Notes under the pieces: model-generated
What the model was told of the DNA's origin: nothing
The model's database searches: none
Seen by the model: only the letters and a program-made list of their open reading frames with translations
Assembly: GCF_000739635.1 (NCBI RefSeq)
Contig: NZ_BATQ01000151.1
Coordinates: forward strand, 1 to 64,000
Length of the DNA: 64,000 bases
Source: Verrucomicrobium sp. BvORR034
GTDB taxonomy: Bacteria > Verrucomicrobiota > Verrucomicrobiia > Verrucomicrobiales > Verrucomicrobiaceae
Direction of reading: 5' to 3'
Translations under genes and position numbers: made by a program
In this document: piece after piece, positions 11,651-59,225 of the stretch
Numbering within the stretch: the stretch's first letter is position 1
Layout: every line of letters begins with the position of its first letter

Positions 11651-13936
11651 CTACTTCAACGAAGTGCTGGAGATCCGCACCTTGGGCTTGCCAGCGTTAC
11701 GGGTCTGAGGCTGCGACAGCCCCTCTTCTTCGTCATCGAACATCTGGTAGTAGTGCGCCGACGAGTAGTAGTAGTTGTAGTAGTTTGAGATCTTGGAAAG
11801 GTCCACGCTGTTGAGCACAACGCCATAGAGCTTGGCCCCGGCTTTCTGGATGTGACCGATGGCCTCGATCACGTCGCGGCGGTGGGTGATCTCTGATTTC
11901 ACCACCAAGACAACCCCATCAGCCACCCGTTGCAGGGAGGTGGTCTCGCTCAATCCCAATACAGGAGGGGTATCCAGCAAGATCCAGTCGTAGTCGTGTT
12001 TCCACTCCTCGATCGCCTGCTCAAGGCCAAGACGGCAGAGCAGTTCCGATGAGCCCGCCACGGTGTCGCCACGGGAATAGTAGTCCAAAAGAGGAAGCGG
12101 TGTGTGACGCTTCATTTCCTCCAACGTCATCTCACCCGTCAGCGCCTGGCAAAGGCCGGGACCACGAGTTTCTCTGAAGAGACGGTGCACACGGCCGCGG
12201 CGGAAGTCGAGGTCCACGAGAAGCACTCGCGCTCCCGAAGACTGGAACGCCCAGGCCAGGTTTGCGCACGTCGTGGTCTTGCCTTCGCTCGGCCGGGAGC
12301 TGGTGAGCATGATCACCTTGGCACCTTCTTTGTTCCCCGCCTGCAAGGCGAGGTGGGCCCGGATCACCCGGTAGCACTCCAGAACGTTGTTGGGCTTCTT
12401 GGATTCATCCTCCACCGGTCGGGTGATGTTTTCCAGGATCTCCGGGGTGGATTTGGGCACCACACCGATGCCTTTGATCCCGGTCGCCTTCTCAAACGCC
12501 TCGAGACTCGTAAACTGGTCGTTCAACTGCTCCAGGGCAAAGGGCACGCCCAAGCCCAACCCCACGGCAAGAACCAGCGCCATCATGGCCAGCTTGGACT
12601 TGGTCGGACTTACGGGGTTGTCATCACGCAGTGTGGTGAACTCTCTGAACCGGATGTCGACGCGCTCTTTGTCCACGCCAAACTCCATGGTGGTCACCAG
12701 CTTGGAGAGATCGGTGTAGGCTTTGCTCCAGGCAAGATCCCCTTCCTGGCCCAGCGTGTACTCCTGACGAAGTTTGTTCAGCTTCTCCGTGGACTTGGCG
12801 TACTCGGGAATCTTGGTCTCCAGTTGTACAATCTCCTGCTGCACACGACGGTAGTCCACGTCGAAGCGCTTGCGCTCCACGTCCAATTCTGCGGTCAGGC
12901 TCTCGTTGATGAGCCGGAGTTTCTCCCGCAGTTTTTTCATCACATCGTGATCTTCCAGGTAGGTTCGGGAAGCTTCTTCGACGTCCTTTTCTACCGTGCG
13001 TTTGTCACGCTCAAGCTGCTGCCAGGGGCGCAGGCCTTCCATCATCGAGGGCTGCACCACCACCTGTTGTGCGGAGGGCAGACCAAAAGCCAGGGCGGGA
13101 TGAGTCAGGGCATCCTTCATGTCGCCCGTAGCAGGCAGCACCTGGCCGACGGTGCTCTTTTCCGTGGCGATGCTTTTGGAGTTCTCAAGGATGGAAAGTT
13201 CTTCCAAAGGATCGAGTCCGACCGCCCGGCGAGCAGTGATGACGCTGCGCACGTCATCGTATTTGCGGAGCTTGTGCTGCGCACGGAGCAGATCCACCGG
13301 CACCTGGGCCAGGGCATTCTGTTCAATCATCAGTTCCGTGATGGCATTCGTCCGCTCGAAGTCCACCTGGCCCTTGAGCTTGGCGTCAATCTTCTGCTTG
13401 AGCAGCACCAGCTCATCCTGATACTTCTTCACCGCCACGTCCATCCACGCGAGGCGCTGCTCGCGGTAGTAGGATTCATATTGGTCAACAAGAGCCTTGG
13501 GGAACTCACGAACCACCCAAGGGTGGGGCGAATACACATCCACCTGCAGGGTGGCAAAGTCGAGAATACCCACCGACACCTTGCGGAGCGGACCATCACG
13601 CAGCTTCTCATAGCTGTCCGTGGACTGACCAATGCCAAGACGGTGAGCCGTCCAAGCCAGCATCTGACGGGAACTGAGCTGCCCCGCGACATTGCGCTGG
13701 GCGCGAGCCTGACTGATCGCCTCAATGCTGTCCGAGGTGATGGGCAGCGCGAAGAACTTCATGTCGATCAGCCCTCGGGAGTAATAAACCGAGGGGGTGA
13801 ACATGAAATAGCAGACCCCAAGCAGGCACCCCAAAATCATCAGCAACACCATCAGGCGGCCGTATTTGAGATAGCCTAAAACCTGAGTAAGAATATTCAG
13901 CCCCACCGGCAGGGCTTTCTGGTTGCTGGTCTGCAT
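11651..13936 (-). CDS. wzc: Wzc-like polysaccharide co-polymerase with BY-kinase domain
   Basis: 761 residues, ATG at 13936. TM1 (about 27-47) and TM2 (about 445-468) flank a long periplasmic coiled-coil region (about 175-420) typical of PCP-2a chain-length regulators. The cytosolic kinase has Walker A SSRPSEGKTTT (about 545-555), Walker A' VLLVDLDFRRGR and Walker B WILLDTPPVLG (about 650-660). The tail carries the Tyr cluster NYYNYYYSSAHYYQMF (about 716-731), the expected autophosphorylation sites. It should control polymer length and open the export channel with the OPX protein encoded 65 bp upstream. No cognate low-molecular-weight or PHP phosphatase is present in the window. Confidence 0.93.
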   Translation of the reverse strand: MQTSNQKALPVGLNILTQVLGYLKYGRLMVLLMILGCLLGVCYFMFTPSVYYSRGLIDMKFFALPITSDSIEAISQARAQRNVAGQLSSRQMLAWTAHRLGIGQSTDSYEKLRDGPLRKVSVGILDFATLQVDVYSPHPWVVREFPKALVDQYESYYREQRLAWMDVAVKKYQDELVLLKQKIDAKLKGQVDFERTNAITELMIEQNALAQVPVDLLRAQHKLRKYDDVRSVITARRAVGLDPLEELSILENSKSIATEKSTVGQVLPATGDMKDALTHPALAFGLPSAQQVVVQPSMMEGLRPWQQLERDKRTVEKDVEEASRTYLEDHDVMKKLREKLRLINESLTAELDVERKRFDVDYRRVQQEIVQLETKIPEYAKSTEKLNKLRQEYTLGQEGDLAWSKAYTDLSKLVTTMEFGVDKERVDIRFREFTTLRDDNPVSPTKSKLAMMALVLAVGLGLGVPFALEQLNDQFTSLEAFEKATGIKGIGVVPKSTPEILENITRPVEDESKKPNNVLECYRVIRAHLALQAGNKEGAKVIMLTSSRPSEGKTTTCANLAWAFQSSGARVLLVDLDFRRGRVHRLFRETRGPGLCQALTGEMTLEEMKRHTPLPLLDYYSRGDTVAGSSELLCRLGLEQAIEEWKHDYDWILLDTPPVLGLSETTSLQRVADGVVLVVKSEITHRRDVIEAIGHIQKAGAKLYGVVLNSVDLSKISNYYNYYYSSAHYYQMFDDEEEGLSQPQTRNAGKPKVRISSTSLK

Positions 13937-14001
13937 GTCGCGTCTCTGAAAGGATGGATGGGCCGGCTTGGAAAGGGAGTCCCAAGAAGCGGCTTGAGTC
14001 T

Positions 14002-14754
14002 CTAGAATCCGAATACTTTTTCTGGCACTACCACAATATCCCCCGTTCGAATGGGAATGTCTGGAAGCTTGCCATCTGCCACAGCCTTCAGATCAATGGG
14101 CATCTTCTTCTTGGGCTGGGACGGAGCCGCCTGGCGCAAAACATAAGCCTTGGCTTCGTTGGAGAAACGGGCGAATCCACCGGAGATCAGAATGGCTTCA
14201 TAGACCCCCATGGTTTTACCAATCTCCACCGTAAGGTTGTGCTGCCCAGGGCGGGCCACTTTGCCAGTGATGTACACCAGCATCTGTTGCGTCGTGGCAC
14301 TGGACTGGCTACCACCCACCATGGAAGTCCGGTCAAGGATGACAGTGGCCACCCGCAGTTTCTGACTCTCCAGAAGCTCCTTCATCCGTGCCTCTGCCTG
14401 GGAGGGCGTCAACCCGGCCAGCTGAATTCTCCCCATAGTGGGGAAGATGATGTGCCCCTCGGCACGCACGGTGTAGCCACCATTAAGCGTGGCATCCTCC
14501 AGGACATAAATGTCCACGGACTCACCAGGGCGGATGGGGATGTTCTTGGGATCCGTAGGAGCTTGGGCTCTTGGAGCCGAATACGGGTCGAACGGAGGAG
14601 TGTCGAGAGCCGGCTTGGTCTTGCAAGAGACCAGCCCCGCGATCAGAAACGCCAGCAGACCGGCGGTGCATCGTGCTGCTCTACTAAATTCAGCGGGTTT
14701 TCCGGGTGAGGAGAGGTTGGGCTGGGGGCGGAGCATCAGAACGGTTTTCGACAT
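14002..14754 (-). CDS. wza: Short Wza/OPX-type polysaccharide export lipoprotein
   Basis: 250 residues, ATG at 14754. The lipoprotein signal peptide ends in LVSC (Cys44). The polysaccharide export (PES) domain spans about 73-142 and one SLBB domain about 158-245 (YITGKVARPGQH onward), with the end PEKVFGF. E. coli Wza is about 380 residues and has further SLBB repeats plus a C-terminal helix that forms the outer-membrane pore; both are absent here. The protein therefore probably stays periplasmic or lipid-anchored and needs a partner pore, for which the beta-barrel gene 1.1 kb upstream in the operon is the obvious candidate. On its own strand a TTGACA lies 50-60 bp upstream, without a convincing -10 box. 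Confidence 0.88.
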   Translation of the reverse strand: MSKTVLMLRPQPNLSSPGKPAEFSRAARCTAGLLAFLIAGLVSCKTKPALDTPPFDPYSAPRAQAPTDPKNIPIRPGESVDIYVLEDATLNGGYTVRAEGHIIFPTMGRIQLAGLTPSQAEARMKELLESQKLRVATVILDRTSMVGGSQSSATTQQMLVYITGKVARPGQHNLTVEIGKTMGVYEAILISGGFARFSNEAKAYVLRQAAPSQPKKKMPIDLKAVADGKLPDIPIRTGDIVVVPEKVFGF

Positions 14755-14843
14755 TTAATTACTGGGGCCTGGGAACCTTTGGGTGAAATCTCGATGCCAG
14801 TCACAGGAGTACTGTCAAAACTATCACGTGGCCTAAATTTGAA

Positions 14844-14869
14844 GCGACCGCCAATAACCTGGCGGTCGC
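14844..14869 (-). terminator. Strong stem-loop upstream of the OPX gene (terminator or attenuator)
   Basis: GCGACCGCCA and TGGCGGTCGC form a perfect 10-bp stem with loop ATAACC (plus strand reading). On the minus strand it is followed by TTCAAATTT. It lies 83 bp after the stop of the EF-hand protein gene and 90 bp before the OPX start. It may partly terminate transcription so that the barrel and EF-hand proteins are made in different amounts from Wza and Wzc. Confidence 0.55.
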
Positions 14870-14951
14870 GAAAGTCGCCCTCCGGATCAAAAATGCAACA
14901 CTTGCACTAGCTAACCGTTGAGCATCAAATCTGGAAACTCCGGTGCGAAGA

Positions 14952-15797
14952 TTACTTCGTCGAGCGGGAGGCTGGGCTGACCCAAACCCCTTCGGCGTTG
15001 TTGTTAACGAAATCTTTGCGAACTGGCTCTTCTTGCACAGTGATCAGGATGTGATCGAAGGCAGTGCGGAAGAGTTTGAGCGGCGGGCTGGGAGTATCCA
15101 CGCCACGGGTGGGATCCCCTTTGCCGCGGTGGGCTACCGTTCCCAGAATCCGAACGTCACCGAGATAGGCACCGGAGGGCTTCACGCCTTCCACATACAC
15201 GAACCGGGGAATGATGCTCGGAAGGTTGGCAGGATAGCGCTCGGCGCTGATTGCAAACTCGATGAGACGCATTTGAGGATTGGCCGAGTCGAGCAAAAGC
15301 TCCGTGCGGGCGGCATCACGCCAAACGCGAACGCGACCCACAGACTGCTGCTCTTCTTCGAAGGAACCAAACTCGCCCGACTCTGCCGCACGATTGATGC
15401 CGCAAACTTCGAGCCCCACCACCACATCACCTTCAAAGTCAATGCGATAGGGCTTCACTTCGATGACGATCTTCGACATTTCCCCTTCCCCGAGAATCAA
15501 CCCTGGAGGAGTTTGCTCAAAGCCGCCCTGGTCCTGTGCATCCCCCTGGCGGATGGAGCCGTCATAGTTGAGGTCTGCATCCAGGTCGATACGGGCGATG
15601 CGACGATTCAGGTCACGATAGCGGTTGAGCTTCTGACCGTAGTAGGAATGAAAGTCGCCAGGAAGATCCTGCTTGGTTTCGGTTCCTTTGTTCCGGTTCG
15701 AGATCCCACCACCACTTTGAGGCTCGCCACTCAACAGAGTGGAGATCGTGACGGTCAGGGCCGCGAAGGAGCAGATGGCCTTGGTTGATAGTTTCAT
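14952..15797 (-). CDS. Exported protein with an EF-hand/dockerin-like calcium loop, unknown function
   Basis: 281 residues from the ATG at 15797 (MKLSTKAIC); an upstream TTG would add 13 residues that spoil the signal peptide. The signal peptide ends near residue 23. At 75-86 the loop DLNYDGSIRQGD has ligands at positions 1, 3, 5 and 12 with Gly6 and Ile8, a textbook EF-hand/dockerin loop. The rest is rich in beta strands (for example MSKIVIEVKPYRIDF). I do not recognise a family. It lies between the barrel gene (55 bp gap) and the OPX gene, so an envelope role in polymer export, perhaps calcium-stabilised, is inferred. Confidence 0.65.
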   Translation of the reverse strand: MKLSTKAICSFAALTVTISTLLSGEPQSGGGISNRNKGTETKQDLPGDFHSYYGQKLNRYRDLNRRIARIDLDADLNYDGSIRQGDAQDQGGFEQTPPGLILGEGEMSKIVIEVKPYRIDFEGDVVVGLEVCGINRAAESGEFGSFEEEQQSVGRVRVWRDAARTELLLDSANPQMRLIEFAISAERYPANLPSIIPRFVYVEGVKPSGAYLGDVRILGTVAHRGKGDPTRGVDTPSPPLKLFRTAFDHILITVQEEPVRKDFVNNNAEGVWVSPASRSTK

Positions 15798-15852
15798 GGC
15801 AGAGGTGGTTAAGCTTCGGAGGAGGATTGAATCCAAGGATGTGGGAGCCGGA

Positions 15853-18147
15853 TCAGTACACGTAGTTCACGCCCATGATTAACAAATGTTCTTTCACATT
15901 ACTGCCCTTCGCACCCCGCTGATCCAGATACTGGTAGGTGACGTTGCCGTTCAAGCGAGCCAGTAGAGGACGCTGGATCGTAGCGTAGTAGATCCAGATT
16001 TCCTCATCCGTAGTGCCTTCCTTGGCAGCTTCGTTGTTCTGATAGGTGATCCCGGCGGTGATCCCTGTGTCATCACCCAGGCTGTAGCCAGCCTGAGCTC
16101 CGAGGGTCCAGCCCTGGAATTCCGCGCCATCCCCAAGACGACGGGAGTCTTGATACTGGCCGTAGGCTCCGAGACGGAGGCGCTCATTGACCGAGTGGTT
16201 GATGGTGTAGCGGACGTATTGGCCGAGGTATTCGTCAAGCTGCTCGGAAAGGGTGTAAACCTGCCCACCAGACAGAGAGTGGCGGGTGTACTGCGTAAGG
16301 TCGTGGCTCACCCCCACATCCCACGTGAAGGAACCGTCCTCGCTGGCGTTTTCACCGTTCTGCCAGAAGTAACCGACCTGACCGTACATGGAAAGGTACT
16401 CGGTCACGCGCCCTGTGACACGGGCAAACACCTGGTGGGACATGGTGTCGAAGTGATCCGGGGTGACCCCTTGATAACCAAAGCTCGGGGCGAACATCCA
16501 GTCGTCTCCCATGTAGCTGTACATGAGGCTGAACTGATCTGCGTCGTTGTGGTCATCCAGATCCGCTTGTGCCCAGTAGTCGGAATGAATCACGTTGCCC
16601 AGGAGCCACCACTCGTTCTGGAAGGGACGCTGGAACTCAAATCCAATGTCATTGCGGTAGCCGCCAAAGCGGGGATCCCAGAAGGATTCGCTACGGGACG
16701 TGCTGTCGAGGATCTCAGAACCGAAGCGATAGCGTCCGACGGCATCCACCTCACCCACTTCCCAACCTTCATAGAAGTCGGCAAGGGAGTTGGAGACACC
16801 GAAGTAGTCATACAGACGGAACATCCAGGGGCCATTCTCCCACTCCACGTTGAGCCGGGCGTTCGTGCCCAAAGCCCAGCCGGAACCGATCCCTGTGGAA
16901 AACCCAACCTCCCCTTCCCCGGGCAGGAAGTAGAAGAACATGGAGGAAGTGATGTAAATCTGGTCGGTGATCCGCAAGGCGGCACGAATGGGAATGCCGA
17001 TGATGCTGATCCAGCCATCATTGTCCACTCCCTCTGGCAACGGGGCGTCACCGGAGTAGTCCGTGTACAACATGGACGCGGACACGCCCAAGAAATCAAG
17101 GTACAACGGGCCAAGCTTCAGCATCACGCGATCCGCCGCGATGTCTTCCGAGAAGATTCCAAAGCCGTAGTCCAGATCGACCGTCAGGAAATCTGGATCT
17201 GGTGAATGATAAAGCGCGTTGTTGCCCGGCATCACCGTGCGAAGACCCCGCTCCAACCGGTCGTAGAACGCCCCATTGCGCTGGTAATAGTTGTCTGGAG
17301 CTGAACGCACCGGCCAGAGACCAGAATAAGCCCAGTAGCCGCGGTCACCCTTGGCACGGGGATAGTCCGCATTCCCGCCAGCGAGAATCGGAGACTCGGC
17401 CTGGGTCGGGAAATAACCACCCTGCGATGGCGGGGCAGAGTTTTCAGGAATGGGTCGCAACGGGCTATCCACCCGGGACTGGCTCAGGGCTTGAGGCACT
17501 TCATAGCGCTGGCCGATCACGCGGCCCGCTCCTGACGAACGTCGGCCCATTGGACGGGCCTGGACGGCCGGAGCCGTCTCATAATAAGAATCCGCCTGCG
17601 TGTTGACCATGGTCTCACGGGCGGTGTTGACTTCGGCGGGGGCAGCTTGAGGAGCCTTTCTGGCTTGATAGGGAGCCGGATCTTTGGTCGCACTCTGCAC
17701 CGGCATCGCAGGCGGCACTTGCGGATCCAACGGGGCCACGGAAGGCGCTGGCACCACGGGAACCATCTCTGGAGCGGGAGTCGGAGCCGGCGTAAATGTC
17801 GGCGGCGCTACCGGAGCAGGGGCCGGGGCTGGCACCTGGGTCGGGACGCCCTGAACAGGGGCAGGAACCGGGGTAACGGGAACGGCAGGCGCCGGAACAG
17901 GTGCAGCAGGCTGTGCCGTGGGCGGCAGTGGCTGAATGGTCTCGAACTCAGGTGGACGGAGGTTCGGAGGGGCATCACCCAGCGGAGGAGCTCCTTCCGC
18001 AGCCTGGAAGGCAGGAGGGAGGAGCAAATTCACTGCCACGGTATTTCCACCTTGCTGGGCGCAAAGCGGTGCCGCAACAAAAGCAGTGGATGACAGCAGG
18101 ATGGCCAGCTGAGTGCGGGCGAAGTAGTGCGGGCGAATAGATCCCAT
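15853..18147 (-). CDS. Outer-membrane beta-barrel protein with Pro-rich linker, probable polysaccharide export porin
   Basis: 764 residues from the ATG at 18147 (MGSIRPHYFA). The signal peptide ends near PLCAQ. A long Pro/Ala/Val-rich segment (about 50-150, with many PAP and PVP units) could span the periplasm or the peptidoglycan. From about residue 290 onward come alternating amphipathic strands with many aromatic residues and short turns, and the C-terminus is MGVNYVY, whose terminal aromatic residue fits a BAM-dependent barrel. Its operon partners are a short OPX protein and Wzc. Beta-barrel partners are known for OPX proteins that lack their own pore helix, so this is the likely outer-membrane exit. 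Homology to a named porin family is not evident by eye. Confidence 0.8.
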   Translation of the reverse strand: MGSIRPHYFARTQLAILLSSTAFVAAPLCAQQGGNTVAVNLLLPPAFQAAEGAPPLGDAPPNLRPPEFETIQPLPPTAQPAAPVPAPAVPVTPVPAPVQGVPTQVPAPAPAPVAPPTFTPAPTPAPEMVPVVPAPSVAPLDPQVPPAMPVQSATKDPAPYQARKAPQAAPAEVNTARETMVNTQADSYYETAPAVQARPMGRRSSGAGRVIGQRYEVPQALSQSRVDSPLRPIPENSAPPSQGGYFPTQAESPILAGGNADYPRAKGDRGYWAYSGLWPVRSAPDNYYQRNGAFYDRLERGLRTVMPGNNALYHSPDPDFLTVDLDYGFGIFSEDIAADRVMLKLGPLYLDFLGVSASMLYTDYSGDAPLPEGVDNDGWISIIGIPIRAALRITDQIYITSSMFFYFLPGEGEVGFSTGIGSGWALGTNARLNVEWENGPWMFRLYDYFGVSNSLADFYEGWEVGEVDAVGRYRFGSEILDSTSRSESFWDPRFGGYRNDIGFEFQRPFQNEWWLLGNVIHSDYWAQADLDDHNDADQFSLMYSYMGDDWMFAPSFGYQGVTPDHFDTMSHQVFARVTGRVTEYLSMYGQVGYFWQNGENASEDGSFTWDVGVSHDLTQYTRHSLSGGQVYTLSEQLDEYLGQYVRYTINHSVNERLRLGAYGQYQDSRRLGDGAEFQGWTLGAQAGYSLGDDTGITAGITYQNNEAAKEGTTDEEIWIYYATIQRPLLARLNGNVTYQYLDQRGAKGSNVKEHLLIMGVNYVY

Positions 18148-18154
18148 AACGCAG

Positions 18155-18433
18155 TCAGTCCTGAAGCTTCCTCCTGAAAAACCCAAACCGTTCAAAGGCC
18201 GAGTAGTCGGCGGCAAATAAGCAATAGAACAAATAAATGTAAAGGCCCACTAATGGAAGAAACAAAATGATGGCGGACCAAAACAGTTTCAAGACGTTGT
18301 TCTGAGCCCGCCCCCAAATGCTGGCAAGGCTGGTGACCACCAGCCCCAGCCAGGCAAATACGATCGCCCAATAGATGGGATCGATCAGGTTCTGCACCTT
18401 AAGCTGAAGAAAATTCAGGGCGGCTTCTCGCAT
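18155..18433 (-). CDS. Small two-TM protein (PLDc_N-like)
   Basis: 92 residues, ATG at 18433. Hydrophobic segments lie at about 20-40 and 50-72, the second with the pattern FLPLVGLYIYLFY. Such two-helix proteins with W..I.LFLPLVGL..Y are typical of the phospholipase-D N-terminal (PLDc_N) family, a small membrane module without catalytic residues. Its stop lies 7 bp before the barrel start, so it is the first gene of the export operon. Its function is unknown; assisting assembly of the export complex is only a guess from position. Confidence 0.65.
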   Translation of the reverse strand: MREAALNFLQLKVQNLIDPIYWAIVFAWLGLVVTSLASIWGRAQNNVLKLFWSAIILFLPLVGLYIYLFYCLFAADYSAFERFGFFRRKLQD

Positions 18434-18910: not shown

Positions 18911-19183
18911 ATGCTCGTCCTCTCTGTCTCCTCAACCGCCAGCCTTTCCGCCTCGCCCCGGCTGCGCCAGAACGGCTTTACCCTGCTTGAAACGCTGGTT
19001 GCCCTCGCGGTGTTGATCACGCTGACCATGGTGGTGGCCTCGATCTACAAGCACCACACCGGTGCCCCGGCCAGCCCTGAACCAACCCCGGTCGAGATGG
19101 AAACCCGGCCCAGAAATCTGTCGCCTACGGAGATGCCCACTTTGCGCGATCCTGTGGACACTCCTGCGCCCTCCCGCCAATAG
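18911..19183 (+). CDS. Short prepilin-like protein with N-methylation motif
   Basis: 90 residues, ATG at 18911. The type IV prepilin/pseudopilin signature is complete: NGFTLLETLVALAVL at about 21-35, with cleavage expected between Gly and Phe and Glu at position 5 of the mature protein. The hydrophobic helix then runs to about 46. Only about 45 further residues follow, Pro-rich and disordered-looking, with no globular pilin head. No pilus assembly gene is nearby. It may be a minor pseudopilin or an envelope-tethered peptide that uses a prepilin peptidase encoded elsewhere. Confidence 0.65.
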   Translation: MLVLSVSSTASLSASPRLRQNGFTLLETLVALAVLITLTMVVASIYKHHTGAPASPEPTPVEMETRPRNLSPTEMPTLRDPVDTPAPSRQ

Positions 19184-19216: not shown

Positions 19217-20359
19217 ATGTCTGGCTCTGACGCCCCCTCCGTCGAAAACGCAACGGTCACTCCCATGCAGGGGTGCCGATGGCTTCTCAGCCTGATCCGC
19301 GGTGTCATCCGCTTTTTTTCCTGGATGAGCCTGGGTTGGCTGTTCGTGGCAGCGCTGGCGATCCACTGGGTGGGACAACACAACCCCACCCCCGCATTTT
19401 TGCTATTTCTTCCCGCCTGGCTCTGGTGCGCTCCGGGGCTGGCCATGCTTGTTCCAGCTCTGCTGTTTGACTTCCTCCGGTCAGGGGCGCCCCTGCTTCT
19501 GGCCACCCTTTGCTTCCTGGGGCCGGTGTTGGGCTACGAGTTCTCTTTCGGGAGCCCTTCGCCTCAAGGCGCCCGCACGCTGAAGGTTATGACCTACAAC
19601 CGTGGTCAAAGCCAGGGCACCAGCCTGCAGCCTTTCAAGAATCAGAATCAGCCGGACTTGCTCGCCCTGCAGGATTCCGGCGGTCGAGCCCAATCCTACC
19701 TGGAGGCAGATGGCTACAAAGAGTTTTCCCACGGCTCCAGCTCGGGCGAGTTTCTGCTGCTCAGCAAGTTCCCGATCCTCAGCACACAGCCAATAGTGTT
19801 CGAGCACCAGCCCAACAAGCAGGGCCAGATTCAGCGCACCGAGCTGGGGGCGCGGTTTGAGCTTGATTGGGCGGGCACCCGGGTTGCCGTGTACAACATG
19901 CACTTCCCCACTCACCGGGGTATGCTCCAGTCTGAACGCAACGGGGGCTTTCTTTCTGGAGTGCTCGGGATCCCCGGCACTCCCCTGGCCCAGAAGCGTC
20001 ACAACCGCGAAGCGTACTGGGAGGTCACCCTCCGCCAGATCCGCCAGGTTTCCGACCAGATTGGCAAGGAGACGATTCCCGTCATCCTCGTTGGGGACAT
20101 GAACAATCCCCCCTTCGGGCCGTTTCATCGCACCCTATGTGAACATCTCGTGGACGGCCATAACGAGGCTGGCCAGGGCTATGGCTACACCTTTCCCGGG
20201 CAAACCAACAATCCTCTGGCCCTGTTCCGCCCCTGGTTGCGCATCGACTACGCCCTCCACTCAAAGGGTGATTGGGCAACCCTGCGTCACGAGGCCGAGC
20301 CGAGCCGCACCTCACAACACCGCGCCCTCTTTGCCGAATTCGGCAACGTCAGCCGCTGA
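19217..20359 (+). CDS. Membrane-anchored endonuclease/exonuclease/phosphatase (EEP) family protein
   Basis: 380 residues, ATG at 19217. Two or three hydrophobic segments lie at about 36-52, 60-84 and 92-106. The EEP catalytic domain then follows, facing the periplasm or the membrane: MTYNRG near 125-130, NMHFPTHRG, the metal and nucleophile-orienting GDMNNPP, DYALHS and the terminal SQHRAL (S-x-H). The usual metal-binding Glu of the LQE motif reads LQDSGG (Asp153), an unusual replacement. Related proteins hydrolyse phosphodiesters in nucleic acids, inositides or lipids. Its place in the polymer locus hints at a polyprenyl- or lipid-phosphate substrate, unproven. The GT4 gene follows after 26 bp. 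Confidence 0.75.
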   Translation: MSGSDAPSVENATVTPMQGCRWLLSLIRGVIRFFSWMSLGWLFVAALAIHWVGQHNPTPAFLLFLPAWLWCAPGLAMLVPALLFDFLRSGAPLLLATLCFLGPVLGYEFSFGSPSPQGARTLKVMTYNRGQSQGTSLQPFKNQNQPDLLALQDSGGRAQSYLEADGYKEFSHGSSSGEFLLLSKFPILSTQPIVFEHQPNKQGQIQRTELGARFELDWAGTRVAVYNMHFPTHRGMLQSERNGGFLSGVLGIPGTPLAQKRHNREAYWEVTLRQIRQVSDQIGKETIPVILVGDMNNPPFGPFHRTLCEHLVDGHNEAGQGYGYTFPGQTNNPLALFRPWLRIDYALHSKGDWATLRHEAEPSRTSQHRALFAEFGNVSR

Positions 20360-29591: not shown

Positions 29592-30125
29592 ATGTTCTCC
29601 AACTCCTCGACCCACCAGGGCCTTTCATGGGCGGCAGAACGACATCGTTTCATTGAAGCAGGAGGAAACACCTCCCATGCCTTCGGATTGGGCCGGATGA
29701 TCGGCAGAGCCTATGCCATGCTATACCTCGCGACGAGCCCGATGTCGCTGGACGAGATTGCCGCGACGCTCAGGGTCAGCAAGGCCAGCGCCAGCACCGT
29801 GCTTCGGCAACTCGCCTCCTGGCAGGCAGTCCGCCAAATCTGGGTGGCGGGAGACCGCAAGGACTACTACGAGGCGGAGACGGATTTTGCGGTGATCTTG
29901 AAGGAAGGGCTGATGCCGGGAGTCCGGAAGAAGCTGCAGACGGCAGGCACCCAGATCGAAAAGACGCTGCAAAGCTCCACCCAGAAAGCGTCAGCGACAC
30001 CGGCAAACGAAGAGGTGTCCCCCGCCGACCAGGCGGAAATTCGGCGGCGGCTGCGTTCGGCGCAGCAACTCCATCAACGTCTGGATAAAGTGCTGGGGAG
30101 CAAGCTGCTCGCCCGGTTTCTTTGA
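29592..30125 (+). CDS. GbsR/MarR-family transcriptional regulator
   Basis: 177 residues, ATG at 29592. A winged helix-turn-helix occupies about 40-100: MSLDEIAATLRVSKASASTV is the recognition region, and the wing RQIWVAGDRKDYY contains the Asp-Arg pair common in MarR-type wings. The pattern GRMIGRAYAMLYL before it is typical of GbsR-like proteins. A helical C-terminal half suits dimerisation. It lies inside the polysaccharide cluster, 73 bp after a GT2 and 115 bp before another, so it probably controls part of the locus. The ligand is unknown. Confidence 0.82.
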   Translation: MFSNSSTHQGLSWAAERHRFIEAGGNTSHAFGLGRMIGRAYAMLYLATSPMSLDEIAATLRVSKASASTVLRQLASWQAVRQIWVAGDRKDYYEAETDFAVILKEGLMPGVRKKLQTAGTQIEKTLQSSTQKASATPANEEVSPADQAEIRRRLRSAQQLHQRLDKVLGSKLLARFL

Positions 30126-30240
30126 TCCAGATCAGTTCAAATCATTGCGACAGGAGCCCTCTGAGGACTGCTCTCCACCCAATTCCAAGCATGGCCGCAA
30201 CTCTCTGCGACCAATGGCGGCAGCGTGACGAAATCTGATT

Positions 30241-31242
30241 GTGCCAGCCGCTGCCCCTACAGTCTCGATTGTCATTCCCGCTTATCGGAAAGCGGCGACT
30301 CTGGCCAGAGCGCTCCAAAGCGTGGCCAACCAGTCGTACCGGGACTTCGAGCTGCATGTGGTGGATGACTCAGGCAACGAGGACCTCAGGCCTTTGGTGG
30401 CGCAGTACGCGGTCACCAGCTACACACCCCAGAACTGCCAGGGCCCGGGAGCCGCTCGAAACCGGGGTCTGACCCTGTGCACAGGCCGCTATGTCATCTC
30501 TCTGGACCACGACGATGAGTGGGATCCGGATTTTCTGGAACGGGCCGTCGAGGCGATCGAGCATCACCATGCGGACACCATCTGGATGAACTTCCGCATT
30601 TCCGGCATTCGCGACCGCGCAGACTGCCTCGCCACCAGCCCGTCTCGACGGAAGTTGTTTGCCCACCAGACGGAGAAGTCGTGGCTCATGACCCACGATC
30701 AGGCCTGTCGTTTCTATCTGGGCAGGATGGCCCCCCTCTCCAACAGCGCCATGCTCTTCCGTAGAGAAAAGCTGGGAACCGGCTGGTATGAGAAGGCCAT
30801 GATGGCAGACGACTGGCTGCTCATGGCCCGACTGCTGATGGACCCTGCAATCAAAACCGGCATCGTGGCCGCCCCTTCATGGACCAAACATGAAGACGGA
30901 AGCCACCGCTCCCTCTGGTCTCAGGAAACCGGCAGACGCTGTGTGCATGATGTCACCTATGCCTGGCAGCACTACGCGCCCGCGATGACACCTGCGAACC
31001 AGCAACAGGTGCGACTCTACCTGGGCAACCTGCACTACAAACTTGCCTACCACTGCTTCTGGGCCGGCGACCACACAGAGGGCCGGGACAATGTCCGGCT
31101 CGGGAGAGGCCTGGCTGGCATCACAGGCCAGTCGCTCCTCCTCGTCATGATCTTCGCCCTCCGCAAACTGGCAAGAGCGGCGGGCCTCCCACCCCTTAGC
31201 ACTCTGAATCGGGCTCCCAAGCAAACCAGTACGCAGCCCTGA
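30241..31242 (+). CDS. GT2 family glycosyltransferase
   Basis: 333 residues with a GTG start at 30241 (no in-frame ATG before the domain). The GT-A domain opens VSIVIPAYRKAATLARAL, has HVVDDSGNED, then NCQGPGAARNRGL and SLDHDDEWDPDF with the DHDD metal site. NSAMLFRREKLGTGWYEKAMMADDW marks the acceptor region. The C-terminal third is helical with a hydrophobic stretch near the end (LLLVMIFALRKLA) that may sit on the membrane. It is followed after 36 bp by the ABC exporter pair. Confidence 0.86.
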   Translation: MPAAAPTVSIVIPAYRKAATLARALQSVANQSYRDFELHVVDDSGNEDLRPLVAQYAVTSYTPQNCQGPGAARNRGLTLCTGRYVISLDHDDEWDPDFLERAVEAIEHHHADTIWMNFRISGIRDRADCLATSPSRRKLFAHQTEKSWLMTHDQACRFYLGRMAPLSNSAMLFRREKLGTGWYEKAMMADDWLLMARLLMDPAIKTGIVAAPSWTKHEDGSHRSLWSQETGRRCVHDVTYAWQHYAPAMTPANQQQVRLYLGNLHYKLAYHCFWAGDHTEGRDNVRLGRGLAGITGQSLLLVMIFALRKLARAAGLPPLSTLNRAPKQTSTQP

Positions 31243-31278
31243 TTCTGATTCCCCTGCCCCCGAGCTATTTCAGTCATC

Positions 31279-32190
31279 ATGGAAAACCCGCCCTCTCCAA
31301 CCCAGGCCTCTGCGGCTGACATCGCCCCGCTGGAAACCGGCGACGACGAGACTTGGGATCTCATCATCCGGCCGAAGTCCGGCTGGCTGGAACTGCACCT
31401 CGAAGATCTCTGGCGTTATCGCGACCTGCTCTGGATGTTCGTCCGGCGCGACTTCGTGGCGCAATACAAACAGACCATTCTGGGCCCGCTCTGGTTTCTG
31501 ATTCAGCCCCTGCTCACGACGCTGACGTTCACCATCATCTTCAGCGGGGTGGCCAAGCTCTCCACAGACGGCCTGCCGCCCCTGCTCTTCTACCTCGCCG
31601 GCACCGCCCCGTGGAACTACTTCGCCACCTGCGTGACCAAGACGTCCACCACGTTTGTTACCAACGCGAACCTGTTCGGAAAGGTGTACTTCCCTCGACT
31701 GGTCACGCCCATCTCCATCGTCATCTCCACCCTCATCCAGTTCGCCATCCAGTTCGCGCTCCTGCTGGGCACATTGATCTGGTACCTGGCGAAAGGCGAA
31801 CCCATCACTCCACACTGGACGGGCATTGCTTTGATGAGTCCGCTGCTCATTGTCATGATGGCTGCTCTGGGCCTTGGGGTGGGCATCATCGTCTCCGCCC
31901 TCACCACCAAGTATCGCGACCTTTCCTTCCTCGTGACCTTCGGCATCCAGCTCGCCATGTATGCGACGCCGGTGGTGTACCCTCTCTCATCCGTTCCGGA
32001 GCGCTACCGCTCCTGGATGGAGCTCAATCCCATGACCCCGGTCATCGAGGCCTATCGCGCGGTTTACCTGGGGGTCGGGGCCTTCGACTGGGGCTCCCTC
32101 ACTTACAGCGCCGGGTTCACCCTTGCCACCCTTCTGGTGGGCATCATCATCTTCAACCGGGTGGAAAAGACGTTCGTGGACACCGTTTGA
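31279..32190 (+). CDS. wzm: ABC-2 type polysaccharide exporter, permease (Wzm/TagG-like)
   Basis: 303 residues, ATG at 31279. A cytosolic N-terminal part with the sequence LWMFVRRDFVAQYKQTILGPLWF, the amphipathic entry found in Wzm/TagG/KpsM proteins, precedes six hydrophobic segments between about 68 and 300. Cytosolic loops are short. It should form the inner-membrane channel that flips a finished lipid-linked polymer to the periplasm, driven by the ATPase encoded 16 bp downstream. Confidence 0.92.
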   Translation: MENPPSPTQASAADIAPLETGDDETWDLIIRPKSGWLELHLEDLWRYRDLLWMFVRRDFVAQYKQTILGPLWFLIQPLLTTLTFTIIFSGVAKLSTDGLPPLLFYLAGTAPWNYFATCVTKTSTTFVTNANLFGKVYFPRLVTPISIVISTLIQFAIQFALLLGTLIWYLAKGEPITPHWTGIALMSPLLIVMMAALGLGVGIIVSALTTKYRDLSFLVTFGIQLAMYATPVVYPLSSVPERYRSWMELNPMTPVIEAYRAVYLGVGAFDWGSLTYSAGFTLATLLVGIIIFNRVEKTFVDTV

Positions 32191-32206
32191 GAATCCTTTC
32201 TACCCC

Positions 32207-33487
32207 ATGCCGAGCGACACTGTCATCTCCGTCCGCAATCTCTCCAAACTCTACCGTCTGGGGGAGGTCAGCACCGGCGTGCTGGCCCACGACCTGAACC
32301 GCTGGTGGCACCGGTTCCGGGGCAAGGAGGATCCTTACACCCGGCTGGGTGCCGTCAACGACCGCACCGCCAAGGCCAGCAGCGACTACGTGTGGGCCCT
32401 GCGTGACACGAGCTTCGACGTGCGGCGCGGGGAGGTGCTGGGAGTTATTGGAAAGAACGGCGCCGGCAAGAGCACGCTGCTGAAGCTGCTCTCCCGGGTG
32501 ACCAGCCCCACTGGCGGAGAGATCAAGGTGCGCGGGCGGATTGCAGCCCTGCTTGAGGTCGGAACGGGCTTTCACCCGGAACTCACCGGAAGGGAGAACA
32601 TCTTCCTCAACGGCGCCATTCTGGGCATGCGCAAGCCAGAGATCGTGCGCCGGCTCGATGAAATCGTCGAGTTCAGCGGATGTGAACGCTACGTGGACAC
32701 CCCGGTGAAACGCTACAGCTCCGGCATGTATGTGCGGCTTGCCTTCGCCGTCGCCGCCCACCTCGATCCCGATATCTTGATTGTGGACGAGGTTCTGGCC
32801 GTGGGTGACGCAGAGTTCCAGCAGCGCTGCATCGGCAAGATGAAGGATGTGGCCGCCACCAGCGGGCGGACGGTCATCTTTGTGAGCCACAACCTCAGCG
32901 CCGTGCAGTCCCTCTGCAATTCTGTCATCCGCATGCAGGAAGGCACCCTGGTCTCCGCCACGCGGGATGTGCAGACGGAGATCAATCTTTACCTGAGCAA
33001 TGCTCAACGGGGTAACAGCCACTTCCCCAAACGCCTCTCGGCAGAGATCACTCTGGACGCGCTCAAGGTCTCACCGGGTCAGGTGGCGAGCCGTTCCCGC
33101 GCGGAAATCACCGTGAGCCTGGAGACCTCCGTCGCCACACGGATGACGGACGCCTGCATCCTCATCTATGACGCCAAGGGCACACGGGTCGCCATATTAG
33201 ATGGGCGGGAAACAGGGCTCGCTCCCATGAGACTCGCGGCAGGTCGCACCGATCTGGTGTTTGATATTGCCACCGCCAACCTGGTTCCCGGCACCTACAA
33301 TCTGGGCCTGTACTTTCACTCCGGCCTTACCAACGTCAATCTTACAGACCTCATGGAAATGACCGTCCTTGAGACCTCCGCCCTGGGCGTGCCCACCTAC
33401 CCGGCTGAGCACCGTGGCTTTGCCCTGCTCGACTTCAAGACCCGCTGGCAGACGCCTGACTCTGCTCCGCCAACCGCCTCAGCTTAA
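32207..33487 (+). CDS. wzt: ABC-type polysaccharide exporter, ATPase with C-terminal carbohydrate-binding domain (Wzt-like)
   Basis: 426 residues from the ATG at 32207 (MPSDTVISVR); an earlier in-frame start lies inside the permease gene. The ATPase has Walker A GKNGAGKST (82-90), the Q-loop region, signature YSSGMYVRLAF near 167 and Walker B ILIVDEVLAVGD. An insertion rich in Trp, Arg and Lys (about 30-60) precedes Walker A, as in other Wzt proteins. From about 245 the C-terminal beta-sandwich resembles the Wzt domain that reads the modified non-reducing end of O-antigens. Nearby FkbM and other methyltransferases could supply such a cap. Confidence 0.92.
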   Translation: MPSDTVISVRNLSKLYRLGEVSTGVLAHDLNRWWHRFRGKEDPYTRLGAVNDRTAKASSDYVWALRDTSFDVRRGEVLGVIGKNGAGKSTLLKLLSRVTSPTGGEIKVRGRIAALLEVGTGFHPELTGRENIFLNGAILGMRKPEIVRRLDEIVEFSGCERYVDTPVKRYSSGMYVRLAFAVAAHLDPDILIVDEVLAVGDAEFQQRCIGKMKDVAATSGRTVIFVSHNLSAVQSLCNSVIRMQEGTLVSATRDVQTEINLYLSNAQRGNSHFPKRLSAEITLDALKVSPGQVASRSRAEITVSLETSVATRMTDACILIYDAKGTRVAILDGRETGLAPMRLAAGRTDLVFDIATANLVPGTYNLGLYFHSGLTNVNLTDLMEMTVLETSALGVPTYPAEHRGFALLDFKTRWQTPDSAPPTASA

Positions 33488-58064: not shown

Positions 58065-59225
58065 TCACCTTGAACCCTGCCTCTCCTTGATCGCCGCCTC
58101 GTGCTCCTCACGGGTCACAGCTCCGTCGCTGTTCGTGTCCAAGCGTTGGAACAACGGGGCTGGGCCGGAGAACTCCTCCTTGGTGACCTTGCCGTCCTGA
58201 TTTTTGTCATCCTTGCGGGAGATGACTTCCCAAGGAATGCCACGTCGTCCGCCCTGCGCGGCTCCAGGCCCAGCGGGGACTTCCTTGGCTGTGCTGTCGG
58301 TGACCAGCGCATCCACCGTGGTGCTGCCCTCCTTCAGACGCTGGTCGAAAAACTTGGCCACCATGTCTTCGATGTCCTTTCCTGAGAACCCCGGACCACC
58401 GTGACCCGCATTGTGGATGGTGTGGAAGTGGGCGCTCACCCCGGTTTTCTTCAGGGCATCAAAGAGCAGCTCGCTCTGGTTGATCGGCACGGTGGCGTCC
58501 TTGTCGCCATGCACGATGAGGAAAGGAGGATCGGCCTTGTCCACAAAGGTGATCGGGTTGGCCTTCGCCGCCTTGTCCTTGTTCTCCATCACCACGCCGC
58601 CCAGCAGTTTGCTTTCTGGCGAGGTCGGATCGGCATGGCGTTCATAACCCGGCCGGGTGACAAAGGCAACCAGATCTGTGGGGCCATAATAATCGCACAC
58701 CGCCTGCACCTTGCTGGACTGGTCGAGGTTCGTTTTTACATCGAACTCTTTGACCTCCCCGCTGGTGCCGAGCAGGGCCACGAGGTGCCCGCCGGCGGAA
58801 CTGCCCCAAACACCGAACTTGTCCGGGTCCAGGCGATACTCTGCCGCATGGGCCCGCAGCCAGCGGACGGCGGCCTTGCAGTCCTCGATCTGGGCCGGGA
58901 ACACCGCGTGACTGGTAAGCCGGTAGTTGATGCTGGCCACGGCGTAACCCCGCGCGACGTAGCCTTCGCGCAAGGGAGGGCAACCGTCCTTGCTGCCAGC
59001 CTGCCAGGCCCCGCCGTGAACCCAGATGATGAGCGGGACCTTGCCCTCCGCTTTGGCGGGCAGGTAGAGGTCCAGTTTGTGACGTTCATGGCCATCGGGC
59101 ACGTATTCCAGATCGCGATGGGCGGTCACGCCAGATGAAGTCTGCGCCGAGAGCGGCTGCAAGGCGGCTGCGGCAGCGATGGCCGCCAGGAGCGGAAGGA
59201 GCGTGGTACGGAGGATAGGTGCCAT
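58065..59225 (-). CDS. Secreted alpha/beta hydrolase (BD-FAE/carboxylesterase type) with C-terminal EF-hands
   Basis: 386 residues, ATG at 59225. A signal peptide (to about 28) precedes an alpha/beta hydrolase domain with the oxyanion HGGAW (70-74), nucleophile elbow GSSAGG (Ser143), an Asp in VHGDKDATVP and the catalytic His in NAGHGG. The order fits feruloyl/acetyl esterases of the BD-FAE/hormone-sensitive-lipase type. After about residue 330 two EF-hand-like loops follow, DDKNQDGKVTKEEF and DTNSDGAVTREEH. It may deacylate extracellular plant-like glycans, with calcium supporting folding. It is a single gene between repeats. Confidence 0.85.
   Translation of the reverse strand: MAPILRTTLLPLLAAIAAAAALQPLSAQTSSGVTAHRDLEYVPDGHERHKLDLYLPAKAEGKVPLIIWVHGGAWQAGSKDGCPPLREGYVARGYAVASINYRLTSHAVFPAQIEDCKAAVRWLRAHAAEYRLDPDKFGVWGSSAGGHLVALLGTSGEVKEFDVKTNLDQSSKVQAVCDYYGPTDLVAFVTRPGYERHADPTSPESKLLGGVVMENKDKAAKANPITFVDKADPPFLIVHGDKDATVPINQSELLFDALKKTGVSAHFHTIHNAGHGGPGFSGKDIEDMVAKFFDQRLKEGSTTVDALVTDSTAKEVPAGPGAAQGGRRGIPWEVISRKDDKNQDGKVTKEEFSGPAPLFQRLDTNSDGAVTREEHEAAIKERQGSR

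Follow-up and report, generated by a model that had tools for sequence, protein, structure and literature searches.

A protein with a conserved EF-hand-like loop is co-inherited with the candidate outer-membrane barrel of a Verrucomicrobium polysaccharide export set

Some polysaccharide exporters need to connect a short OPX ring to an outer-membrane barrel that is a protein of its own. The published account of the composite D1D2-OPX/beta-barrel translocon (class 3 OPX), exemplified by EpsY/EpsX of Myxococcus xanthus and VpsN/VpsM of Vibrio cholerae, proposes a direct contact between the two proteins (PMC9601211). A locus of Verrucomicrobium sp. BvORR034 bears on how this connection is made, since it encodes a third conserved, single-copy component between barrel and OPX, and such a component is a concrete candidate for an answer.

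The locus lies in a window of 64,000 nucleotides (NZ_BATQ01000151.1, positions 1 to 64,000) from a genome of 8.58 Mb. The five open reading frames (ORFs) that an earlier, sequence-only reading had grouped as an export set are all present in the ORF listing where it placed them, on the minus strand, spanning 18433-11651. They encode, in order, a PLDc_N-like small protein of 92 amino acids (18155..18433), a candidate outer-membrane beta-barrel of 764 amino acids from its ATG (15853..18147), a protein of 281 amino acids from its ATG (14952..15797), a short D1D2 OPX lipoprotein of 250 amino acids (14002..14754) and a Wzc-like co-polymerase of 761 amino acids with a fused tyrosine autokinase (11651..13936). 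The third of these carries a single calcium-type loop, and we refer to it as the loop protein.

Co-inheritance with the barrel and gene order

Of 141 genomes of the order, 44 gave the loop protein in protein and profile searches, with one copy each by profile, and all 44 carry the barrel at E ≤ 3e-72. A strong barrel match (E ≤ 2.5e-39) occurred in 47 of the 141: the same 44 plus G122, G125 and, as a contig-edge fragment, G138, with the next match at 1.5e-21. The barrel is thus present in only three of the 97 genomes that have no loop protein, and Fisher's test on the four counts (44/0/3/94) gives 2e-33, a value that ignores shared descent. Weaker relatives of the barrel occur in genomes both with and without the loop protein. 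In a set of 387 genomes from the phylum, the full-length loop protein was found in six, all belonging to the order (a seventh match is a short piece in G289), and the strong barrel was found in the same six. Within four genera (g3, g11, g14 and g29), presence or absence of one protein goes with that of the other, G122, G125 and G138 excepted, and in four genomes the loop gene sits on another contig with the barrel still present. These results show that the loop protein is co-inherited with the barrel, which passes the co-occurrence test set by the earlier reading; this joint inheritance with the channel makes it a probable genuine component of the export machine. Some lineages do without it, namely those of G122, G125 and G138. 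In a tree of the 47 barrels, G122 and G125 came out as sisters (100/100), and the barrels of the four genomes with an unlinked loop gene grouped in 78% of bootstrap trees.

We compared gene order with iterated profiles in 44 loci, namely the window plus 43 other regions of at most 20 kb each. The barrel was found in 40 of them, OPX in 39, Wzc in 34 and the PLDc_N-like gene in 33. Barrel and loop genes adjoin in 33 of the 40 loci that have both, loop gene and OPX in 32 of 39, and the trio barrel - loop protein - OPX is contiguous in 32 of the 44. Elsewhere, six loci have the order loop - PLDc_N - barrel - OPX - Wzc; L065 has the loop gene on the opposite strand, about 4 kb off the barrel; and PLDc_N - barrel - OPX - Wzc remain together in L067-L070, where the loop gene is on another contig.

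The trio also persists where Wzc does not directly follow OPX, as in 12 of these 32 contiguous loci: only the PLDc_N-like gene intervenes in L054, six loci have Wzc elsewhere in the stretch, and five gave no Wzc match (L063, a 4-kb contig, is among them). The PLDc_N-like gene is present in six of these 12 loci, directly before Wzc every time, and stands directly before the barrel in the other 27 of the 33 loci that have it. Because the trio can do without an adjacent Wzc and the PLDc_N-like gene, where found in such loci, precedes Wzc, we read the set as two modules, an outer-membrane trio (barrel - loop - OPX) and an inner-membrane pair (PLDc_N - Wzc). The five-gene order had been put forward as an undescribed subtype of polysaccharide export; the set does recur, but its order is not fixed, and its stable core is the trio.

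Over 33 loci, sequence distances of the loop protein correlate with those of the barrel (r 0.85), Wzc (0.80) and OPX (0.68), and after removal of the Wzc component the correlation is 0.56 with the barrel and 0.10 with OPX. The rows are related, so we claim no significance for these values.

Spacing within the set is tight, with 7 bp from the stop of the PLDc_N-like gene to the barrel ATG (18147), 55 bp from barrel to loop gene, 197 bp from loop gene to OPX and 65 bp from OPX to Wzc. At other loci where loop gene and OPX adjoin, the gap between them never exceeds 203 bp and is mostly below 150. In the window this gap holds a hairpin on the minus strand (14844..14869; 11 pairs, loop of 4) with a folding z of -2.40, equalled by 4 of 200 shuffles. 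No run of T lies behind it and it is not listed among the terminator-like sites, of which 11 were found against 7.0 expected (promoter-like sites: 3 against 2.8); it may split or process the transcript.

A poreless OPX protein and its candidate barrel

The OPX protein matches Poly_export (E 3.8e-13) and has one SLBB stretch (26.5 bits against a Pfam cut-off of 27). Its Cys44, identified by eye as the lipoprotein cysteine, is kept in 28 of 28 aligned relatives. The family profile covers only residues 61-231 of the 359 in Wza (2j58), and the final Gly-Asp starts 13 residues before the C-terminus in 36 of 39 family members, which leaves no room for domain D3 and the D4 pore helix. Lengths are correspondingly short: 37 of 39 relatives have 221-262 residues, and two ORFs have 287. 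Judged by sequence comparison, the protein is the D1-D2 part of Wza without its pore helix, lacking the C-terminal outer-membrane helix of Wza-type (class 1) proteins, and the original description of one SLBB domain and no pore of its own holds.

The set shares with the composite translocon a short OPX of D1-D2 only (250 amino acids, within a limit of 280, with no C-terminal helix recognizable by sequence), an autokinase co-polymerase and polysaccharide biosynthesis genes nearby, and it includes a candidate barrel gene. It differs in that another conserved protein, apparently exported, is encoded between barrel and OPX and that Wzc is accompanied by a small membrane protein. The OPX/barrel part therefore fits a known kind of composite translocon, as the proposal that a poreless OPX relies on a separate barrel had implied (PMC9601211). 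What is new is the conserved extra loop protein; the exporter is of a known kind. In the excerpted text of PMC9601211 and PMC9603273 we found no mention of a loop-type or PLDc_N-like component. The string 'Verrucomicrob' is absent from the main text of both, and the PVC superphylum is named in a figure legend of the former. Our searches of open-licence papers yielded none on OPX-type export in the phylum, nor any on a calcium-binding or immunoglobulin-like periplasmic adaptor in barrel-type polysaccharide export.

The window's barrel has 52 prolines in residues 1-240 and 19 in the remaining 524. The strongly Pro-rich part is seen in all three genomes of Verrucomicrobium; among the relatives, the N-terminus is long yet poorer in Pro in several and short in most. 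The protein scores 20.2 bits against TIGR03016 (cut-off 90.85) and falls under the cut-off of DUF2490. Among 37 members, weak matches at E ≤ 0.1 were obtained to TIGR03016 (21), BBP2_2 (7) and DUF2490 (7), and a C-terminal Phe or Tyr is present in 39 of 40. The gene lies two places upstream of OPX, and an AlphaFold2 model from three sequences (the window, L031 and L032) reached a predicted local distance difference test score (pLDDT) of 29. The length and Pro-richness first noted for this protein are borne out, while its barrel identity comes from the weak profile matches and the C-terminal residue, support that is weak but consistent. Another barrel - OPX - Wzc set lies far from this one in the genome (L084, G000:C151, 8092-13225), and its barrel matches our profile at 1.4e-13.

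The XrtA/PEP-CTERM set (TIGR03027, TIGR03016, TIGR03018) offers a second comparison, since its models give the best scores, or good ones, for the OPX, the barrel and the sugar enzymes. However, the export scores are far under the cut-offs (67.7 of 180 bits for TIGR03027, besides the TIGR03016 score above), and the three exosortases found in this genome are all on other contigs (C186, C63 and C70).

At the inner membrane, the Wzc-like protein exceeds the cut-off of TIGR01007 (131.6 against 108.05 bits) and matches AAA_31. For its small partner, described earlier as a PLDc_N-like two-helix protein, the gene is present and two membrane helices are predicted by eye, but the match to PF13396 is under the Pfam cut-off (17.2 against 23.3 bits).

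The loop and a possible deiminase-type fold

The loop protein has a signal peptide, recognized by eye, and a predicted beta-sandwich. It matches no Pfam or NCBIfam model, is 96% identical to a protein of Verrucomicrobium sp. BvORR106, and gives an hhalign probability of 0.1% against OPX. Its loop occupies residues 75-86 (DLNYDGSIRQGD; 15540..15575, minus strand) and reads D75-L-N77-Y-D79-G80-S-I82-R-Q-G-D86. In the 44 members, Asp is kept at position 1 in 44, Asn at position 3 in 39, Asp at position 5 in 43 and Gly at position 6 in 40; position 8 is Ile, Leu or Val in 44, and position 12 is Asp or Glu in 41. The four key positions are kept in 40 members and all six in 37, L065 among the latter with a one-residue gap. 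The members without the loop Gly are exactly the four that left the cassette and, as these form one group, they count as one observation. The full loop appears in 36 of 20,000 shuffles of the protein.

The protein had been called an EF-hand protein on the strength of this 12-residue loop. The loop is there, but membership of the EF-hand family was dropped: no EF-hand or dockerin model is among the 14 Pfam families touched by any of 43 members (E ≤ 1), none of the 44 has a second full loop, there is no paired helix-loop-helix, and the residues before the loop form a strand rather than a helix in the low-confidence model described below. We therefore write of an EF-hand-like loop. By contrast, a predicted hydrolase elsewhere in the window (58065-59225) has two EF-hand-type loops near its C-terminus, as seen by eye.

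An AlphaFold2-type model of the loop protein, built from an alignment of three sequences only (the window, L031 and L032), consists mostly of strands and is of low confidence (pLDDT 47.7; predicted template modelling score 0.57). The 50 rows listed by VIA-align for this model have Z from 9.8 to 8.6, where a best Z of 7-8 is typical for models without relatives. Deiminases account for 47 of the listed titles; the other three are chains of mouse cytoplasmic lattices, two of which appear as PAD6 and the third presumably likewise. In 43 of the 50 listed rows the aligned stretch runs on to enzyme residues 354-367, beyond the middle domain, and about half start in the N-terminal domain, so the match is not confined to the middle domain. 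Eleven PAD2 rows place model residue 45 (R69) on PAD2 residue 117. If ungapped from there, D75-x-N77-x-D79-G80 would fall on PAD2 D123-x-D125-x-D127-G128, calcium site 6 (numbering taken from D125 and E131 in PMC8826395). The site 6 pattern D-x-D/N-x-D-G is thus found in the loop, at the positions whose conservation is given above, and Asn replaces D125 in actinobacterial and fungal enzymes (PMC8826395). A low-threshold profile alignment gives the same register, collinear to the domain end, at a probability of 2.3% and P 0.02. We regard the register as suggestive, and consider it likely, at somewhat better than an even chance, that the loop protein resembles the calcium-binding middle domain of deiminases. 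If so, that domain would have a stand-alone bacterial role.

Several features set the loop protein apart from PAD_M (PF08527). It stands alone at 281 amino acids, looks exported, and contains no catalytic C-terminal deiminase domain (no Pfam match). PAD_M is not among the Pfam matches of 43 loop members; it exceeds its cut-off in none of 145 genomes of the phylum, this genome included, and no relatives of it were found among plasmids. The loop-family profile retrieved no deiminase from the PDB, its best match being beta-lactoglobulin (E 0.27), which we take as chance. An hmmsearch run without filters ranked PAD2 16th and PAD4 118th of 2861 scored sequences, the rest being decoys. By hhalign, besides the 2.3% given above for the loop family, PAD2 with PAD4 reaches 2.2% against a related unit in G289.

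That unit lies within a 1390-residue open frame from another family of the phylum (L088, 3-4175; profile 3.7e-6), where it adjoins other calcium-type repeats. Units related to the loop protein were found in three of 194 genomes of the phylum, too few to bridge the loop family to deiminases. Foldseek's top rows for the loop-protein model (RhoGDI, cohesins and antibody domains, E 1.6e-3 to 1e-2) were not used.

Possible roles of the loop protein and the surrounding genes

The role that we favour, and to which we give about an even chance, is that of a calcium-stabilised periplasmic subunit that docks on the barrel within a composite exporter. The Wzc-like protein and the neighbouring PLDc_N-like protein would form the inner-membrane module, the short OPX lipoprotein would be the periplasmic ring, and the barrel would serve as the outer-membrane pore for the polysaccharide. 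The loop protein, a small putative beta-sandwich with one edge kept in shape by a single calcium ion, would dock on the periplasmic side of the barrel, where it would probably help to seat the OPX ring or keep it in place. A docking part ordered by calcium is plausible, since the middle domain of deiminases binds calcium in an ordered way that has been linked to its communication with a neighbouring domain (PMC8826395).

A number of observations weigh against this assignment. G122 and G125 carry the barrel with no loop-protein match at E ≤ 10, and the loop protein was not found in G138 (79% complete), whose OPX gene follows the barrel by 18 bp. The second export set of the same genome (L084) has neither a loop gene nor a PLDc_N-like gene within 19.9 kb. 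The distances of the loop protein track those of Wzc as well (0.33 after removal of the barrel component). The barrel profile is biased, having been trained on barrels next to a loop gene; it still found six divergent barrels outside its training set (G029, G079, G131, G116, G122 and G125). On the structural side, the loop-protein model is of poor quality, Foldseek found no match for it at E ≤ 0.001, and the link to deiminases is not significant by sequence.

The alternative that survives best, though we judge it unlikely, is secretion to the matrix or the cell surface: the loop protein would use calcium to bind the polysaccharide once exported, and its gene would adjoin those of the exporter because the two act on one polymer. 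CabA of Vibrio vulnificus, a matrix protein that binds calcium, functions only in combination with exopolysaccharide (PMC4584020), and the placement of a related unit inside the long open frame of G289 (hhalign 94%) would suit such a function. CabA differs, by description rather than by sequence, in being secreted through its own CabB and CabC (PMC4584020), whereas the loop protein goes with the barrel and OPX. Moreover, it follows one barrel subfamily nearly one to one, its gene lies between barrel and OPX in most of the loci compared, and genomes with other barrels have no loop protein.

A bolder form of the docking role is doubtful: a gate or clamp of deiminase-type middle-domain fold, locked by calcium so as to join barrel and OPX, which would make the exporter a three-part, calcium-controlled channel.

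Less probable again is a periplasmic chaperone that assists folding or insertion of the barrel and has no place in the finished channel. The closer tracking of the barrel than of OPX would agree with this, as would the loss of the loop protein in a few lineages, but no chaperone family was matched in Pfam or NCBIfam, and the gene is kept between barrel and OPX rather than merely close to the barrel. That the loop gene is a passenger in the operon with a separate job is very unlikely. Three barrel-bearing genomes do without it and it can sit elsewhere (L067-L070), yet in the four genomes where it has left the operon it still occurs only alongside the barrel, and the two states covary within the four genera, G122, G125 and G138 apart. 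Finally, the barrel could be a surface anchor for the polymer, like the 18-stranded Wzi that anchors capsule (PMC9601211), and the barrel's fold was not obtained at pLDDT 29; we consider this highly improbable, since an OPX protein with no membrane-spanning part of its own needs some separate pore and the weak profile match is to an outer-membrane protein of the PEP-CTERM system.

Turning from the docking role to the surroundings of the export set, the polysaccharide genes in the window comprise a sugar transferase, a Wzy-like protein, glycosyltransferases and an ABC-2 exporter pair. As both a Wzy-like protein and an ABC-2 pair are near the set, the polymer could follow either a Wzy or an ABC route. 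The ABC-2 pair comes after a MarR-like regulator (29592-33487), and the same MarR-like and ABC-2 genes, identified by eye, adjoin OPX - Wzc in two other loci (L076 and L077), which hints at an ABC-type route.

The export set is adjoined by a gene for an endonuclease/exonuclease/phosphatase-family protein (19217-20359), a relative of which was seen by eye beside the PLDc_N-like and barrel genes in the same two loci (L076, 7211-8356; L077, 3521-4690). A small protein encoded at 18911-19183, divergently from the export genes, carries a prepilin-type methylation motif (24.3 bits against a Pfam cut-off of 21.2).

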